Notes under the pieces: model-generated
Told to the model about the DNA's origin: nothing
The model's database searches: none
Seen by the model: the letters and a program-made list of their open reading frames with translations, nothing else
Made by a program: the position numbers and the translations under genes
Shown here: positions 11,352 through 39,039 of the stretch, in pieces
Layout: each line of letters opens with the position of its first letter
Position numbering within the stretch: the stretch's first letter is position 1
Assembly (NCBI RefSeq): GCF_009818105.1
Contig: NZ_CP046564.1
Coordinates: 2,294,001-2,358,000, forward strand
Direction: 5' to 3'
Length of the DNA: 64,000 nt
Origin: Bacillus sp. N1-1
GTDB lineage: Bacteria > Bacillota > Bacilli > Bacillales > Guptibacillaceae

Positions 11352-11904
11352 GCACGTTGAAGTGGATCAAGAATATAAAACCATCTCCTTTTCTGAGGTG
11401 AGCTTTGAACGCGATGTACATATGATTCATCGGTGGATGAACGAAGCACATGTTTTCCCTTTCTGGCAATTAAATATACCGTTAGAAGCCTATAAACGTC
11501 ATTTGCAAAAGGCATTAAAAGACAAGCATCAGAATCTTTACCTCGGTCTTATAAACAACGAACCGATCAGCTACTGGGAAGCTTACTGGGTAGAAGGAGA
11601 TATCATGGAAGGCATGTATGAAAATAAACCTTATGACCAAGGTATTCATCTCTTAATTGGAGAAACAGAATTCCTTGGTAAGGGATACGCATTTCCGCTT
11701 CTTCGAGAAATGGTGTCTTTACAACTGAAGGAAAAGCGAACAAAAAGAGTGATTGCTGAACCAGACATTCGAAATAAGAAAATGATTCATGTGTTTGAAA
11801 AATGTGGCTTTAGACCGCAAAAGCCGATTAAGCTTCCAGATAAAACAGGGTTATTAATGATTTGTGAACGTGATCAGTTTGAAAGGAAGTGGGGGAATGA
11901 ATGA
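11341..11904 (+). CDS. rhbD: Siderophore acyltransferase (IucB/RhbD-like GNAT)
   Basis: The 187-residue protein matches the IucB/RhbD/SidF acyltransferase type: ISFSEVSFERDVHMIHRWMNEAHVFPFW at the N-terminus, then GIHLLIGETEFLGKGYAFPLL and IAEPDIRNKKMIHVFEKCGF, where EPDxRN is characteristic. It would acetylate N-hydroxy-1,3-diaminopropane to give the hydroxamate. The ATG lies inside the last codons of the preceding synthetase gene, with AGGAGG at 11323-11328. A clear paralogue sits at 15083-15721. Confidence 0.9.
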   Translation: MAHKHVEVDQEYKTISFSEVSFERDVHMIHRWMNEAHVFPFWQLNIPLEAYKRHLQKALKDKHQNLYLGLINNEPISYWEAYWVEGDIMEGMYENKPYDQGIHLLIGETEFLGKGYAFPLLREMVSLQLKEKRTKRVIAEPDIRNKKMIHVFEKCGFRPQKPIKLPDKTGLLMICERDQFERKWGNE

Positions 11905-13219
11905 ACACGTATATGATGCAATTGGGATAGGGATTGGACCATTTAATCTTGGTTTTGCTGCCCTAACAGACGAACTGGATGAGGTAGATGTCCTTCTGTT
12001 TGATCGGAAAGAAGAGTTTGATTGGCATCCTGGAATGCTGATTGATGGAACCACTTTACAAGTTCCATTTTTCGCAGATCTGGTCAGCATGGCGGACGTG
12101 AAAAACAAATTTAGCTTTCTAAACTACTTACAAATTCATAATCGCATGTATCACTTTTACTTTTTAGAAAAGTTTCATATCCCTCGAAAAGAATACAATC
12201 ACTACTGTCAGTGGGTATCTAAGAAACTTGATTCATGCCGATTTGGTTATGAGGTGATGGATGTTTCATTACATCAATCAAGAGAAGGAGTATCCGTTTA
12301 TCTTGTTCAAGTTCAGCATGTTAAAACATTAGAAATTGAAACGTTTCTAACAAAACATCTCGTAATGGGGATAGGTTCAATACCTTCCGTTCCTAAACCA
12401 TTCAAATCTAAGCTCAGTGAAACGGTTTTTCATTCATCAGATTACATGGAGAAGAAAGAGCGAGCTGTACAAGGAAAATCGATTGCTGTCGTCGGTTCAG
12501 GTCAGAGTGCAGCTGAGATCTTTTTAGACTTAGCCAAAGAGCAGGAAAAGCACCATTATGAATTAAGCTGGTATACAAGATCAAACGGATTTTTCCCAAT
12601 GGAATACTCAAAACTCGGTCTTGAATATTTTTCACCAGATTACACGGACTTCTTTTACAGACTTTCACAAGAAAAGAAAGATGGGCTACTGAAAGATCAA
12701 GCATTGCTTTATAAAGGAATTAGTGCGGAAACGATTTCTGAAATCTATGATGTCTTATATGAGCAATCGATCGGAAATCAACAGCCGGCTCATCTACAAG
12801 CAATGAGCGAAATAAACCATCTGGAGATGAATGGAGAGGTATGCAACGTGCAAGGAAGTCATACCGTGACAAAGGAATCGTTTGATTTCGAATCTGAAGT
12901 CATCATTCTTGGTACTGGCTACACCCAGAACATGCCAAGCTTTTTGCCAGAATCCCTATTAAATAAAGATCAAAAAAATCGTCTTGATATTACTGAAGAT
13001 TATCGTTTGAGTACGAAACATAACGGTGAAAATGAGATTTTTGTACAAAACGCTGAACTTCACACTCATGGGGTTGGGGCACCTGACCTTGGTCTTGGCG
13101 CTCATCGAAACGCCGTTATTATTAATCAAATCGCTAAGAAAGAAGTGTATCCCGTTCAGTCAAAAAATGTCTTCCAATCTTTTGGAATGGTCAAAAAACC
13201 TGCATTAACAACTAATTAG
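11897..13219 (+). CDS. rhbE: Flavin N-hydroxylase (lysine/ornithine/diamine monooxygenase family)
   Basis: This protein of about 440 residues belongs to the IucD/RhbE flavoprotein family and hydroxylates the primary amine of diaminopropane using FAD, NADPH and O2. Signatures are GIGIGPFNLGFAAL (FAD), FDWHPGMLIDGTTLQVPFFADL (substrate/FAD region), VVGSGQSAAEIFLDL (NADPH) and ILGTGYTQNMPSFL. The frame is open from GTG 11864, but ATG 11897, preceded by AAGGAAGTGGGGG and giving MNEHVYDAIGIGIG, is the natural start and overlaps the acyltransferase stop by eight bases. Confidence 0.93.
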   Translation: MNEHVYDAIGIGIGPFNLGFAALTDELDEVDVLLFDRKEEFDWHPGMLIDGTTLQVPFFADLVSMADVKNKFSFLNYLQIHNRMYHFYFLEKFHIPRKEYNHYCQWVSKKLDSCRFGYEVMDVSLHQSREGVSVYLVQVQHVKTLEIETFLTKHLVMGIGSIPSVPKPFKSKLSETVFHSSDYMEKKERAVQGKSIAVVGSGQSAAEIFLDLAKEQEKHHYELSWYTRSNGFFPMEYSKLGLEYFSPDYTDFFYRLSQEKKDGLLKDQALLYKGISAETISEIYDVLYEQSIGNQQPAHLQAMSEINHLEMNGEVCNVQGSHTVTKESFDFESEVIILGTGYTQNMPSFLPESLLNKDQKNRLDITEDYRLSTKHNGENEIFVQNAELHTHGVGAPDLGLGAHRNAVIINQIAKKEVYPVQSKNVFQSFGMVKKPALTTN

Positions 13220-13233
13220 AAAGTGGTGAACGT

Positions 13234-15036
13234 ATGTATTCTGATAAAGACTTAGATCATATTTTATCAAAAGAAAGCTGGGAACTAGTGAATCATAAAC
13301 TTCTCGCAAAAATGCTTTCAGAATTTATGTACGAGGACATGATTACACCTGAAATCATTCAAGAACAAGAAAACCATAGCCTTTTTGAGCTACGTGTTTC
13401 TGCCAAGAAAACATATCAGTTCCGTGCAGCAACTCGTCTTTTTGATAGCTTCGACGTTGATTGGAAATCGATTCGTCTCTTTTCATACGGAAAAGAAGAG
13501 AAGGTAGGAGCAATCGCTTTTCTTCTCGATATTCAAACACTGATCGGCATGTCGGCTGAAACGACAGCTCACTTAGTAAAAGAAATCAACCAAACCCTTA
13601 TTGCCGATGCTCATCTGTTATCAAATCGCGTGTCCTCAGATGATTTAGTTGAGGAAGACTATGCTAGATTAGAAGGTTATATGACCGGTCACCCTTGGAT
13701 CACCTATAACAAAGGGCGAATTGGATTTGGCTACGATGATTACTTGGACTTTGCCCCTGAACATCAGAATGAAGTAAAGCTTTCCTGGATCGGGGTTAGT
13801 CGTGAAATAAGCTCTTTTCAATCCGTTAACGATCTAACTTTTGATGAGCTTATAAACGCTGAGTTAAGTGTTGATGACCTTCAAAAATTCAAGGAGCTTT
13901 TACTAGCAAAAAGGCTAGATCCCACCAACTTTCTCTTCATGCCAGTTCATGAGTGGCAGTGGAAAAACGTTTTGATTCAGAATTTTGCAGAAGAAATTGC
14001 GAATCAAACGATTGTACCGCTCGGGGAATCTAGTGACGTTTACCTTCCTCAGCAATCCATTCGGACGTTTGTCAATCAATCTCATCGAGACAAGCATCAT
14101 GTTAAGTTGCCAATGAGCATTTTAAATACTCTCGTCTATCGGGGCTTACCTACAGAACGAACGCTCATTGCCCCGCAAATCACCGAATTTATAAAAGGAA
14201 TCTATGAAAACGACTCCTTCTTAAGAGATGAATGTAACGTTATTTTACCAGGTGAAATTGCTAGTATTAACGTTGATCATCCTTATTATCAAAGGCTTGA
14301 ACATGCACCGTATCAATACAAAGAAATGCTTGGGGTTATTTTTCGTGAAAGCATCTACACATACCTTGAAGAAGGAGAACAAGCCATTACATTAGCCGCA
14401 TTGCTATATGAAGACCATGACGGTAAAGCCTATATTCAAAGTATGATTGAAAAGTCAGGGATTTCGACGCAAGAATGGATAACTCAATTTCTTGATGTCA
14501 CGATGAAACCGCTGCTGCATTATTTGTACCAGTACGGCACGGTCTTCTCGCCACATGGACAAAACACCATTCTCGTATTGAAAGAGTACAAACCGTGCCG
14601 ACTGGCTGTAAAAGATTTCGTAGATGACGTTAATATTAGTGATCAACCATTCCAGGAGTTAAGTAGACTGTCACACCAGTTAAAAACGGTTCTTCGCAGT
14701 GAACCACCAGAGGGACTTACGCAATTTATTTTCACAGGTTTGTTTATTTGTCACCTTCGCTATTTGACAAATATTCTAGAGCATAACGAAATGATGACTG
14801 AAGATGAGTTTTGGAAAATTCTCGCGGAAACGGTTCGCTCCTATCAAGCTAGGTTTCCTCACCTAGAAGAGCGGTTTAAGCTGTTTGATTTCTTCCAACC
14901 ATCATTTACGAAGCTATGTCTCAATCGAAATCGCATGGTCCAAGATGGTTATTCGTCTGGAGATGATCGGCCCCACGCATCAGAATTCGGTAAAGTAAAC
15001 AATGCACTTTCTTATTATAAAGGAGTAACAAAATAA
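13234..15036 (+). CDS. rhbF: IucA/IucC-family NIS siderophore synthetase (second)
   Basis: The 600-residue synthetase has GHPWITYNKGRIGFGYDDY (the GHP-x-HP/K ATP-site segment), FMPVHEWQWKNVL, LPQQSIRTFVNQSHRDKHHVKLPMSILNT and FSPHGQNTILVL. It would add the second hydroxamate arm to the mono-substituted citrate, completing a schizokinen-like dihydroxamate. It diverges clearly from the first synthetase, as expected for an A-type/C-type pair. It ends six bases before a terminator hairpin. Confidence 0.93.
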   Translation: MYSDKDLDHILSKESWELVNHKLLAKMLSEFMYEDMITPEIIQEQENHSLFELRVSAKKTYQFRAATRLFDSFDVDWKSIRLFSYGKEEKVGAIAFLLDIQTLIGMSAETTAHLVKEINQTLIADAHLLSNRVSSDDLVEEDYARLEGYMTGHPWITYNKGRIGFGYDDYLDFAPEHQNEVKLSWIGVSREISSFQSVNDLTFDELINAELSVDDLQKFKELLLAKRLDPTNFLFMPVHEWQWKNVLIQNFAEEIANQTIVPLGESSDVYLPQQSIRTFVNQSHRDKHHVKLPMSILNTLVYRGLPTERTLIAPQITEFIKGIYENDSFLRDECNVILPGEIASINVDHPYYQRLEHAPYQYKEMLGVIFRESIYTYLEEGEQAITLAALLYEDHDGKAYIQSMIEKSGISTQEWITQFLDVTMKPLLHYLYQYGTVFSPHGQNTILVLKEYKPCRLAVKDFVDDVNISDQPFQELSRLSHQLKTVLRSEPPEGLTQFIFTGLFICHLRYLTNILEHNEMMTEDEFWKILAETVRSYQARFPHLEERFKLFDFFQPSFTKLCLNRNRMVQDGYSSGDDRPHASEFGKVNNALSYYKGVTK

Positions 15037-15042
15037 CAGAGT

Positions 15043-15067
15043 GACGGGGGTAATCCCCGTCCTTTTT
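15043..15067 (+). terminator. Internal terminator after the core siderophore genes
   Basis: A 7-bp stem GACGGGG / CCCCGTC with a GTAAT loop is followed by C and five T. It lies between rhbF and the second acyltransferase; the ribosome binding site of that gene (AAGGAG at 15068-15073) starts right after the T run, so read-through would set its level. Confidence 0.8.
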
Positions 15068-15082
15068 AAGGAGATAGGTAGA

Positions 15083-15721
15083 ATGGCTTTCGAATGCTCG
15101 ATCACCGAAGAATCCGGTCGAACCATTTCTTTTCGACCGGTGAATGTAGAAGATGTTCATATTTTACACGAATGGATGCATCAGAAACACATTTACCCAT
15201 TTTGGAAGTTAAATTTGCCGCTTGAAGAAATTAAAGTCTGGGTTAAAAACTCAATTTCGTCGCGTCATAAGCGCGTTTTTATGGGTTATCTACATGATGA
15301 ACCGGTTTGTTACGTCATTGGTTATGATGTTAGGCAGGATCCAATTAAACACTATTATTCGATTGAACCGAGGGATATGGGAATGCATTTGCTTATAGGA
15401 CCTAGACAACTATTAAACAAGGAAGATGGGGAAACAATTATTAGAGCCATGACATTGTTTTTGTTTGAAAAGTTTGGTGCAAATAGAATGATTGGAGAGC
15501 CAGATTATCGAAATAGGATCGTCATTCCAATACTAAAAAAACTCGGTGCAAATGTGATAAAAGAGATTCAAATCAATGAAAAAAAAGCAAAGCTTATACT
15601 TGCGAACCGAGATGATTTTCATAAAAATATAGGCGATTCAAAAATCACTTCTTCCTTTCAGCTTGTACATTCCCCTGCTTACGAGTGGGAAAGATTTGAT
15701 GAGGCGATTTATCATGGATAA
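15083..15721 (+). CDS. Second IucB/RhbD-like acyltransferase
   Basis: This 212-residue GNAT is a paralogue of the protein at 11341-11904. Aligned pieces are TISFRPVNVEDVHILHEWMHQKHIYPFWKLNLPLE, GMHLLIGPRQLL and GEPDYRNRIVIPILKKLGA. It carries a longer C-terminus. AAGGAG at 15068-15073 fixes ATG 15083 over the upstream in-frame ATG 15041. Its position behind an internal terminator, together with an esterase, suggests a tailoring role, perhaps attaching a different acyl chain as on rhizobactin 1021. That is inference; it could also be redundant with the first copy. Confidence 0.85.
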   Translation: MAFECSITEESGRTISFRPVNVEDVHILHEWMHQKHIYPFWKLNLPLEEIKVWVKNSISSRHKRVFMGYLHDEPVCYVIGYDVRQDPIKHYYSIEPRDMGMHLLIGPRQLLNKEDGETIIRAMTLFLFEKFGANRMIGEPDYRNRIVIPILKKLGANVIKEIQINEKKAKLILANRDDFHKNIGDSKITSSFQLVHSPAYEWERFDEAIYHG

Positions 15722-16752: not shown

Positions 16753-17736
16753 ATGAAGTATCGACAGTTAGGACAAACCGACTTAAAGGTAAGTGAAGTT
16801 AGTTTTGGAACATGGGCCATCGGCGGAGCGTGGGGGAAAACAAATGACGCCAAAGCTCTCGAATCACTTCAATACGCGATCGATGCCGGCGTTAACTTCT
16901 TTGATACGGCAGATGTATACGGAGATGGTCATAGTGAAGAGCTTCTTGCTAAAGCAACAAAGGGGCAGGAAGATAAGATCCATATTGCAACTAAATTTTG
17001 TCGTGCAGGAGATATCCATGATCCAGCTACTTACTCTGAAGAAAGTGTACGTTCATACTGTGAAGCGAGCTTAAAACGATTGGAACGAGATCAGATTGAT
17101 CTTTTTCAAATCCACTGTCCACCAATTGAAATATTAAAGGATGGAGACGTGTTTCGAGTATTAGATAAGTTAAAAGCAGAAGGAAAAATACGTTATTACG
17201 GTGTAAGTGTCGAAACCGTAGAAGAAGGATTATTATGTCTTGAATATCCAGGCGTAAGCACATTGCAAGTGATTTTTAATCTTTTTAGACAAAAACCTTT
17301 AGAAGAATTGTTTCCTAAGGCGTATGAACAAGGCGTGGGGATCCTCACTCGGGTACCACTTGCAAGTGGTTTATTAACTGGGAAATTCAAGAAAAACTCA
17401 TCCTTCGAAGAAGACGACCATCGTCACTTTAATCGAAACGGAGAAGCCTTTAATGTTGGGGAAACCTTTGCAGGGATTGAATTTGAAAAGGGTGTTGAAT
17501 TAAGTAATGAAATCGATTGGATTGCTCGAGATCGTGAGAGTATGACAACCGCAGCGTTAAAATGGATCCTTGAACATAAAGAAGTCTCTTGTGTTATTCC
17601 TGGCTTTAAAAATATTGATCAGGTGAAACAGAACCTTAAAGCGGTAGAAGTTCCTGATTTTACGAAAGAAGAGATCGAGAAGCTTAAAGCGTTCTATGAG
17701 CAAGAAGTTCATGGGCTAATTAGAGGAGCTTATTAA
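16753..17736 (+). CDS. Aldo/keto reductase
   Basis: This 327-residue NADPH-dependent AKR has the catalytic tetrad pieces Asp51 and Tyr56 in FFDTADVYGDGHSE, Lys81 in IATKFC and the His of LFQIHCPP. It begins MKYRQLGQTDLKVSEVSFGTWAIGG and has the C-terminal cofactor segment CVIPGFKNIDQVKQNL. TTGGAGGGAAATC precedes the ATG. The substrate is unknown. It ends 22 bases before the OsmC-family gene, so the two are probably one transcript, which would pair an aldehyde/ketone reductase with a peroxide-active protein. Confidence 0.92.
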   Translation: MKYRQLGQTDLKVSEVSFGTWAIGGAWGKTNDAKALESLQYAIDAGVNFFDTADVYGDGHSEELLAKATKGQEDKIHIATKFCRAGDIHDPATYSEESVRSYCEASLKRLERDQIDLFQIHCPPIEILKDGDVFRVLDKLKAEGKIRYYGVSVETVEEGLLCLEYPGVSTLQVIFNLFRQKPLEELFPKAYEQGVGILTRVPLASGLLTGKFKKNSSFEEDDHRHFNRNGEAFNVGETFAGIEFEKGVELSNEIDWIARDRESMTTAALKWILEHKEVSCVIPGFKNIDQVKQNLKAVEVPDFTKEEIEKLKAFYEQEVHGLIRGAY

Positions 17737-17758
17737 ATAGAGGAAAGGAGTTTTAAAG

Positions 17759-18223
17759 ATGGGAAAGCCAATTGAAATTGCTAATATTCGAATTGAGCAG
17801 GATAAAGATAAAAGTCGGCGAGCTTATATCGCTGATTTCAAAGAACCTATACACTATGGGGTACATGGTGGTGTTAAAGACTTTTACCAAGCCACCCCAG
17901 AGGTAGAACAACCCTCGACCCTCGATCATATTGTTGCAGCAGCTGGTGGCTGACTAACCGGTACATTATCCGGTGCGCTGGAGGCGCGCCATATACCAAC
18001 TTATCCAAATAAGGTATCAGGAAAGTTTGAAGGAATCATTGAAGCACCAGATGGTGTTCTTAAAATCACAAAAATTCGCTGTCATTATAAGTTGACTATT
18101 CCTGCAGACAAGCGGGATGCAGCTGAAAGAGCTCTTAATGTGTTTGAACGAGGATGTCCAGTAGCACAAACCTTAAAAGACTCCGTCGCTTTTGAACATG
18201 ATTGGGAGATTATAGAAGAATAA
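17759..18223 (+). CDS. OsmC-family protein with in-frame UGA at the catalytic cysteine (candidate selenoprotein)
   Basis: The frame from ATG 17759 (AAAGGAG upstream) reads 64 codons, meets TGA at 17951-17953, then stays open for 89 further codons to TAA at 18221-18223. The whole reads as one OsmC-type protein of 154 residues. Around the TGA the protein is HIVAAAGG-(UGA)-LTGTLSGALEAR, where OsmC relatives carry the first redox Cys. The second Cys is Cys133 in ERGCPVAQTL. The 68-residue spacing matches the two Cys of classic OsmC (about 66). OsmC/Ohr proteins reduce peroxides with this pair. A UGA precisely at the redox Cys with a hairpin after it suggests selenocysteine at position 65. The alternatives are a single nonsense mutation (then a pseudogene) or a sequencing error. 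No frameshift is present. Confidence 0.75.
17951..17997 (+). promoter_or_regulatory. Candidate bacterial SECIS hairpin
   Basis: Starting at the UGA, a 7-bp stem GGTGCGC (17972-17978) / GCGCGCC (17984-17990), with one G-U pair and loop TGGAG (17979-17983), can extend through TAT/ATA and GGTA (17960-17963)/TACC (17994-17997) with small bulges. The apical loop begins 26 bases after the UGA and contains G, which fits the loose bacterial SECIS rule. The codons used here (GCG CTG GAG GCG CGC) are GC-rich, unlike the AT-rich choices around them, as if the RNA shape were selected. Confidence 0.5.
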
Positions 18224-18225
18224 AC

Positions 18226-18264
18226 GAAAGGCTGATGAATAAAACCATTCATCAGCCTTTCTTA
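18226..18264 (+). terminator. Terminator of the aldo/keto reductase-OsmC unit
   Basis: A 15-bp perfect stem GAAAGGCTGATGAAT / ATTCATCAGCCTTTC with loop AAAACC begins two bases after the downstream TAA at 18221-18223, not after the UGA at 17951. This supports the longer frame as the real gene end. The T tract is short. Confidence 0.75.
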
Positions 18265-18400: not shown

Positions 18401-19291
18401 CTATTGTTTCAGCTCAACAACTGGTTCAGCTAGATTAATAAACTCTTTCACAGCAAAAGGCAAATATTTATTTCGTTTCCAGATCAGTCCGAGTTCTAAG
18501 TTTAAATTAGAGTGTCTAAGCTTTAAAGTTTTAATCCTATCATTATGAATTGAATACGCAATTTTACTCGGTAAAAGTGCAATACCCAGTTTCGCTTCTA
18601 CCATTTCAATCATAAAATCCTTTTGCGAGCTTTGACATACGATATTAGGATAAAATTCATTCTTCGAGCATTCTTCTAGAATTCGATCATATAAAGTGAA
18701 GTCATCTCGATACAAAATAAAGGGCTCATATTCGAGATCAGCAAGGTGGATTTCAGAGTACACTGCTAACGGATGCTCATCATGAACGATTAACATGAGT
18801 GGATCTTTGATAACCTGTACTGCTTCAAAACTACTATTTTTTAAAGGAGTGTTACAGATCAATCCAATATCAAGAGAACCGTCATCAACGCCTTGTTTTA
18901 TCATTTTGGACCCTACTTCAGTAAGTAGGATTTCTACTGTAGGATAGAGTGCCTTAAACTGGCTGATTATCTTTGAAAAAAAAGCTGCACCGATGATAGG
19001 GGGGATCCCGATTTTGATTTCCCCCTTTTTTAATTCTGTGATATCCGATAGCTCTGCCGTTAGATTTTGAAAAGCACGAAGAACATGCTGGGCATTGACC
19101 AAAACGGCCTTACCAGCATCAGTCAATTCTAATTGCTTAGACCGATAGAAAAGGGGGATGCCAAGCTCTGTTTCCAGATTCTTGATGGCTTTACTAATCG
19201 ATGGTTGTGACACATGAAGTGTCGATGCTGCTTTTGTAAAACTTAGCTGTCTCGCCACTTCTGAAAAATACTCAAGATGACGAATCTCCAA
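18401..19291 (-). CDS. LysR-family transcriptional regulator
   Basis: The 296-residue protein has the N-terminal HTH MEIRHLEYFSEVARQLSFTKAASTLHVSQPSISKAIKNLE and a LysR substrate-binding domain (IKIGIPPIIGAAFFSKIISQF onward), which responds to a small effector. The start is TTG 19291 with GGAG about ten bases upstream. It is divergent from malate synthase G, so it may control the glyoxylate/glycolate genes; this is inferred from orientation and an operator-like repeat in the shared gap. It resembles CynR/CcpE-type regulators in general form only. Confidence 0.9.
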   Translation of the reverse strand: MEIRHLEYFSEVARQLSFTKAASTLHVSQPSISKAIKNLETELGIPLFYRSKQLELTDAGKAVLVNAQHVLRAFQNLTAELSDITELKKGEIKIGIPPIIGAAFFSKIISQFKALYPTVEILLTEVGSKMIKQGVDDGSLDIGLICNTPLKNSSFEAVQVIKDPLMLIVHDEHPLAVYSEIHLADLEYEPFILYRDDFTLYDRILEECSKNEFYPNIVCQSSQKDFMIEMVEAKLGIALLPSKIAYSIHNDRIKTLKLRHSNLNLELGLIWKRNKYLPFAVKEFINLAEPVVELKQ

Positions 19292-29387: not shown

Positions 29388-31453
<2,066 letters not shown>

Positions 31454-31479
31454 ATGATGTTCATAAGGTTATGAATGGT

Positions 31480-38875: not shown

Positions 38876-39039
38876 CTCTTATCAAGAGTGGCGGAGGGAA
38901 TAGGCCCTATGATGCCCGGCAACCTTTCAACTTTAGTTGAAGCTGGTGCCAAATCCTACAGATGTTGTCATCTGGAAGATAAGAGGAGGATACTGTTAGC
39001 AATCCCTCTTCTTATTTTTTAAGAAGAGGGATTTTTTAT
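38876..39039 (+). ncRNA. SAM (S-box) riboswitch with terminator
   Basis: The P1 arms CTCTTATC (38876-38883) and GATAAGAG (38978-38985) enclose the S-box core: AGAGTGGCGGAGGGA, GGCCCTATGATGCCCGGCAACC and the GGTGCCAAATCC segment. A terminator follows, arms AATCCCTCTTCTTA / TAAGAAGAGGGATT (39001-39014 and 39020-39033) with a T run. SAM binding should stop transcription of the methyltransferase gene downstream. Confidence 0.95.

Follow-up and report, generated by a model that had tools for sequence, protein, structure and literature searches.

The window analyzed here is a 64,000-nucleotide stretch of Bacillus sp. N1-1 (contig NZ_CP046564.1, positions 2,294,001 to 2,358,000, forward strand), and the gene in question, at window positions 17759–18223, encodes a predicted selenoprotein of the OsmC superfamily. 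The frame starts with ATG and ends with TAA at 18221–18223, and its sole internal stop is a TGA at codon 65, in the context VAAAGG-U-LTGTL (U, selenocysteine, Sec). This agrees with an earlier note made from the sequence alone, which had described a single uninterrupted frame with one TGA and a second conserved cysteine (GCPV) intact 68 residues later. With Cys substituted for U, the product scores 50.6 bits against the Pfam OsmC model (PF02566; gathering cut-off 27.5), placing it in the OsmC superfamily. The features of the locus are collected in Table 1.

Table 1. Features of the predicted selenoprotein gene and its surroundings (positions in the window).
Feature	Position	Strand	Basis
Predicted OsmC-superfamily selenoprotein gene, 154 amino acids with Sec65, TAA stop included	17759..18223	+	Frame, Pfam match, conservation
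UGA codon, read as selenocysteine 65	17951..17953	+	TGA in 25/25 fetched copies and 80/80 named loci
Cys133 codon (GCPV), second conserved cysteine, presumed resolving residue	18155..18157	+	Invariant in 13 rows of alignment A1
Asp56 codon	17924..17926	+	Invariant in 13 rows of alignment A1; putative catalytic role
Ribosome-binding site AAAGGAG, 8 nucleotides before ATG	17744..17750	+	Sequence, by eye
SECIS-type hairpin, 8 pairs, loop GGA at 17980–17982	17972..17990	+	Folding, codon conservation
16-pair inverted repeat 3' of the far stop	18226..18261		Scanner: terminator-like on minus strand
Aldo/keto reductase gene, 22 nucleotides upstream, same strand	16753..17736	+	Upstream in 5/80 named loci
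LysR-type regulator gene, convergent neighbor	18401..19291	-	In 9/80 named loci

A profile search (8000 candidates scored, 504 proteins obtained, 120 listed) was combined with a database search to give an alignment of 76 full-length homologues, with the query left out. The column of U65 holds Cys in 59 of these proteins, Trp in 16, and Gly in one, while the second Cys is retained in 75. Trp is printed in all eight full-length matches of the database search. Judged from the protein sequences, these Trp residues most likely reflect TGA codons to which gene callers applied code 4. Ten Cys-containing proteins (A2; e.g., P0124, P0084, and P0066) can be aligned to the Sec group across the full 154 columns (42% identity, E 1.3e-58), and Sec therefore occupies the position that is Cys in the sister proteins. 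The comparison of homologues that the earlier note had proposed for this site hence reveals a Sec/Cys alternation, with the distant full-length homologues having mostly Cys.

The UGA is conserved across genomes. Among 101 genomes, including that of Bacillus sp. N1-1, 35 had a match (E ≤ 0.001). In 25 of them the match was a close homologue with TGA at codon 65, while the other ten had weak matches only (22–31% identity), which contain no stop and are ordinary OsmC relatives. All 25 fetched copies show the context A[AG]G-TGA-[LM][TV]GT; carrier G033 contributes one of them and has a second copy, likewise with TGA. Named records, which partly overlap with the 25 carrier genomes, yielded 93 confirmed stretches, and in the best 80 of these, which were kept, codon 65 is TGA without exception. 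Names on these records include Mesobacillus, Thalassobacillus, Planococcus, Fictibacillus, Alkalicoccus, Marinithermofilum, and Melghirimyces, as well as Candidatus Frackibacter and ANGP1 bins; two are labeled Chryseobacterium and Pseudomonas, possibly mislabeled. The closest named record is Pseudalkalibacillus hwajinpoensis AmN0-1 (protein 95% identical), and a Guptibacillus hwajinpoensis protein is among the database matches. Two gene copies each are found in Marinithermofilum abyssi and Litchfieldia salsa (L067/L070 and L064/L115). A set of 398 genomes drawn from the phylum included six with a match at E ≤ 1e-12 (two already seen), all of the TGA form, and no Cys form was found in them at this threshold; the one TAA row in this search is the second fragment of a broken copy in carrier G097. 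As the same TGA is present in many separate assemblies, a sequencing error is very unlikely. The argument made earlier, that a random nonsense mutation was implausible at this codon, also holds, chance being excluded by the retention of TGA in all carriers and all named loci.

The host genome (a single contig of 4.50 Mb) encodes the machinery for selenocysteine. The earlier note had proposed a search for selA, selB, selC, and selD, taking the absence of selB or selC as evidence against Sec, and all four were found. There is one tRNA-Sec over the cut-off (59.4 bits; anticodon tca by ARAGORN), along with matches to SelB (355.8 bits), SelA (566.5 bits), and SelD (410.4 bits), all inside about 8 kb (genome positions 2056429–2064166). 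SelA is over the cut-off in 25 of 25 carriers versus 58 of the 101 genomes overall, and tRNA-Sec is detected in 24 of 25 versus 57 of 101. The association between the gene and the Sec machinery has a hypergeometric P of 5e-8, uncorrected for kinship, with 15 of the 25 carriers coming from one family. The converse association is weak: the OsmC-type gene is missing from 33 of 58 genomes with SelA, and so it cannot be what generally maintains the machinery. The host SelD gene (genome positions 2061459–2062385) has one in-frame TGA near its N-terminus (...STKGG-UGA-GCKIG...). SelD selenoproteins are described in a passage of PMC13188914 as having Sec in an N-terminal loop, and the TGA of the host gene appears to encode that residue, making SelD itself a predicted selenoprotein. 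Together with the OsmC-type gene, this brings the predicted selenoproteins of the host genome to at least two. The formate dehydrogenase alpha model has six matches in the genome, none with an in-frame stop.

The sel cluster also contains a PhnD/PhnE/PhnC-like ATP-binding cassette transporter between selB and selD (L141:4424-6822), which is a candidate selenium importer. Its binding protein scores 189.4 bits against the NCBI model for putative selenate-binding proteins, below the cut-off of 250. Such genes are present in three of the five sel regions fetched: L141, L144 (binding protein scanned), and L145 (by eye). A glycosyltransferase gene lies beside selB in two relatives (L144:13894-14946 and L145:8174-9196) and about 1.5 kb after the OsmC-type selenoprotein gene in a third (L142:15030-16001). 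These glycosyltransferases resemble members of the GPMC-system family (NF038229), scoring below its cut-off, and have weak similarity to SenB.

A hairpin of the selenocysteine insertion sequence (SECIS) type, unmentioned in the earlier note, starts 18 nucleotides after the UGA, with 26 nucleotides between the UGA and the loop. Limits given for bacterial SECIS elements in a passage of PMC13188914 are a loop of 3–9 nucleotides, a stem of 4–16 base pairs, a distance of 16–37 nucleotides from the UGA, a G in the first two loop positions, and an energy ≤ -7.5. We folded the 21 nucleotides beginning 18 nucleotides after the UGA in 105 copies (the 25 fetched and the 80 named, overlapping sets), and all 105 fell within these limits. 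Of 10,920 control windows, matched in size and offset and placed around other codons in and near these genes, 112 did so. The hairpin is also synonymously frozen. Codons +8, +9, and +11 are GCG, CTG, and GCG in all 80 named loci, whereas elsewhere in the gene GCG accounts for 141 of 957 codons for Ala and CTG for 149 of 702 for Leu. Of the conserved columns examined, +8, +9, and +11 show the least codon diversity, followed by -1 (fourth), +7 (fifth), and +12 (sixth). This frozen hairpin offers a clean natural test of the SelB requirement in these bacteria.

The half of the gene after the UGA is maintained. Among 14 same-genus copies, the median ratio of nonsynonymous to synonymous substitution rates (dN/dS, with dS near saturation) was 0.05 before the UGA (48 of 91 pairs usable) and 0.08 after it (90 of 91). 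Both halves are thus under purifying selection, and the half after the UGA is not decaying. The earlier note had counted decay of this half in close relatives as evidence against Sec; instead it is kept across many genera, with the frame break in G097 as the exception. No open reading frame of ≥ 60 amino acids with an ATG, GTG, or TTG start follows the UGA in the same frame in the window. The first such in-frame codon there is 47 codons downstream, so the second half has no usable start in the window. Annotation nonetheless divides the protein: 48 of 56 matches in the database search are stubs of 84–92 amino acids, none of which includes the part before the UGA, and the second Cys is kept in all 48. 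The corresponding 64-residue first halves could not appear, because the search accepted only proteins 0.55–1.75 times the query length. The gene points to a widespread Bacillales selenoprotein subfamily that is halved by annotation, the stubs missing the catalytic residue and everything before it.

We conclude, from evidence at the level of genes and genomes, that selenocysteine is very probably inserted at codon 65 (probability roughly 0.95), as the earlier note had proposed. The features expected of a bacterial selenoprotein are present, namely an in-frame UGA at a conserved redox site that is mostly Cys in homologues, a SECIS-type hairpin, and selA, selB, selC, and selD. SelD and SelA would make Sec-tRNA-Sec, SelB carrying it would bind the hairpin, and the ribosome would place selenocysteine at position 65 instead of terminating. 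Sec65 could then attack peroxide or another oxidized substrate, and a Sec65–Cys133 selenenylsulfide would form and be reduced by a cellular thiol.

Several observations weigh against this conclusion. The copy in carrier G097 is split over two frames, with the break downstream of the UGA, and carrier G045 (a draft of about 200 contigs) has no detected tRNA-Sec. Directly after the UGA, two of the 25 fetched copies (L031 and L034) have ATG and 48 of the 80 named loci have CTG, and translation may restart there in those copies. The hairpin of the window has a shuffle z-score of -1.96, with six of 200 shuffles folding equally well. No covariation, in the form of a two-sided pair change, was seen in 21 rows chosen from the 105 copies; the four inner stem pairs are invariant, which makes the comparison uninformative. 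The terminator that the earlier note had placed after the far stop is confirmed only in part, as the inverted repeat is real but has a T-run on the minus strand only, leaving its assignment uncertain. Lastly, the support for Sec65 comes from sequence.

As to function, the product is likely a Sec/Cys reductase of the OsmC/Ohr fold, with peroxide or another oxidized compound as the presumed substrate. It has the two redox positions and the long central helix of this fold, and Cys133 corresponds in the alignment to the second Cys of Thermus OsmC (1ukk). For the peroxidase step by itself we have somewhat better than even confidence. Two points tell against that step: Asp56 aligns with a Glu of the E. 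coli protein 1ml8 that lies nine residues ahead of its first Cys, placing Asp where 1ml8 has Glu, and a paper in which OsmC is named 42 times describes a peroxide-response protein that lacks thiol peroxidase activity (PMC4069020). The Sec/Cys pair might instead serve another reductive or carrier role, such as selenium or sulfur handling. We consider this a serious but less favored alternative, to which the Asp for Glu replacement, the distance from solved OsmC/Ohr structures (7–21% identity), the lack of a conserved neighbor pointing to peroxides, and the presence of tRNA-Sec within 5 kb in one of the 80 named loci all lend weight, but the fold and both redox positions match OsmC.

The two remaining explanations deny Sec insertion, and we regard both as highly improbable. 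The UGA could be a true stop, leaving a pseudogene, a 64-residue product, or two separate pieces. UGA is a standard stop codon, most database entries cover only the part after it, one copy is broken, and two fetched copies have an ATG just past the UGA; however, TGA occurs at one and the same codon in every named locus, both halves evolve under purifying selection, the second half is without a usable start in the window, and the hairpin is frozen. The constancy of the TGA, the selection on both halves, and the frozen hairpin led us to reject a pseudogene. Recoding of the UGA as Trp or Cys through general readthrough or a changed code would fit the Trp printed by metagenome gene callers in 16 of 76 homologues, in some of which TGG is possible, but a changed code was rejected given the dedicated tRNA-Sec with SelA and SelB, a hairpin that fits SECIS, and Cys in most other full-length homologues.

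Given insertion of Sec at codon 65, a broader proposal is that in salt-tolerant, aerobic Bacillales like this genus the Sec machinery has this Sec-only OsmC subfamily as its main useful product. We hold this to be doubtful, and the 33 SelA-positive genomes without the gene tell against it. SelD is the only other selenoprotein seen in the host genome, no full selenoprotein count having been made. If the proposal is correct, selenium would protect these cells by way of an OsmC-type enzyme instead of serving formate metabolism. The gene offers an experimentally accessible selenoprotein in spore-formers.

The OsmC-type selenoprotein gene looks like a stand-alone unit. In a survey of the 80 named loci (open reading frames ≥ 80 amino acids, clustered at 60% length), no conserved gene neighborhood was found, the largest cluster being the LysR-type gene. 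Co-transcription with the upstream aldo/keto reductase gene is possible in the window. Within flanks of up to about 5 kb, the sole locus of the 80 with tRNA-Sec is that of Bacillus taeanensis (L103), where it lies about 3.2 kb from the selenoprotein gene. Elsewhere, the window contains a S-adenosylmethionine riboswitch (38876–38985, plus strand), a purine riboswitch (31369–31470, minus strand), and a hydroxamate siderophore-like cluster (11864–15721) with a lysine hydroxylase, an IucA/IucC-like synthetase, and an acetyltransferase (by eye).

OsmC-like selenoproteins are already known, as the earlier note had stated. According to passages in print, marine metagenomes yielded such proteins, with a UxxT motif, in reports of 2005 and 2008, and reviews of 2020, 2022, and 2026 list them. 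We found no mention of the Bacillales subfamily in the open-access literature searched, and the word OsmC is absent from the main texts of PMC5029168, PMC1794560, PMC12013277, PMC5322559, and PMC11944866. A table passage of PMC1794560 gives three selenoproteins in three families for Bacillales, without naming them there. The window protein falls under the cut-off of the NCBI model OsmC_like_Se (NF041052; 20.5 bits, cut-off 95), to which it has weak similarity over residues 50–148 and which 8 of the 13 A1 members match at E ≤ 0.001 (best E 5.7e-7). It is also below the cut-off for OsmC family peroxiredoxins (TIGR03562; 25.1 bits, cut-off 85.8). E. coli OsmC and the Ohr organic hydroperoxide reductases are 7–18% identical to it in the OsmC and Ohr rows listed and, like the sister group, have Cys in place of Sec. 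The marine OsmC-like selenoprotein (COG1765/PF02566), as described in passages of PMC1088965 and PMC2398784, shares the superfamily, Sec in the redox motif, and a SECIS-type hairpin. By motif description rather than by sequence, its UxxT differs from the U-[LM]-[TV]-G-T (UxxG) found here, and whereas it comes from marine metagenomes, the hosts of the present group are mainly Bacillales.
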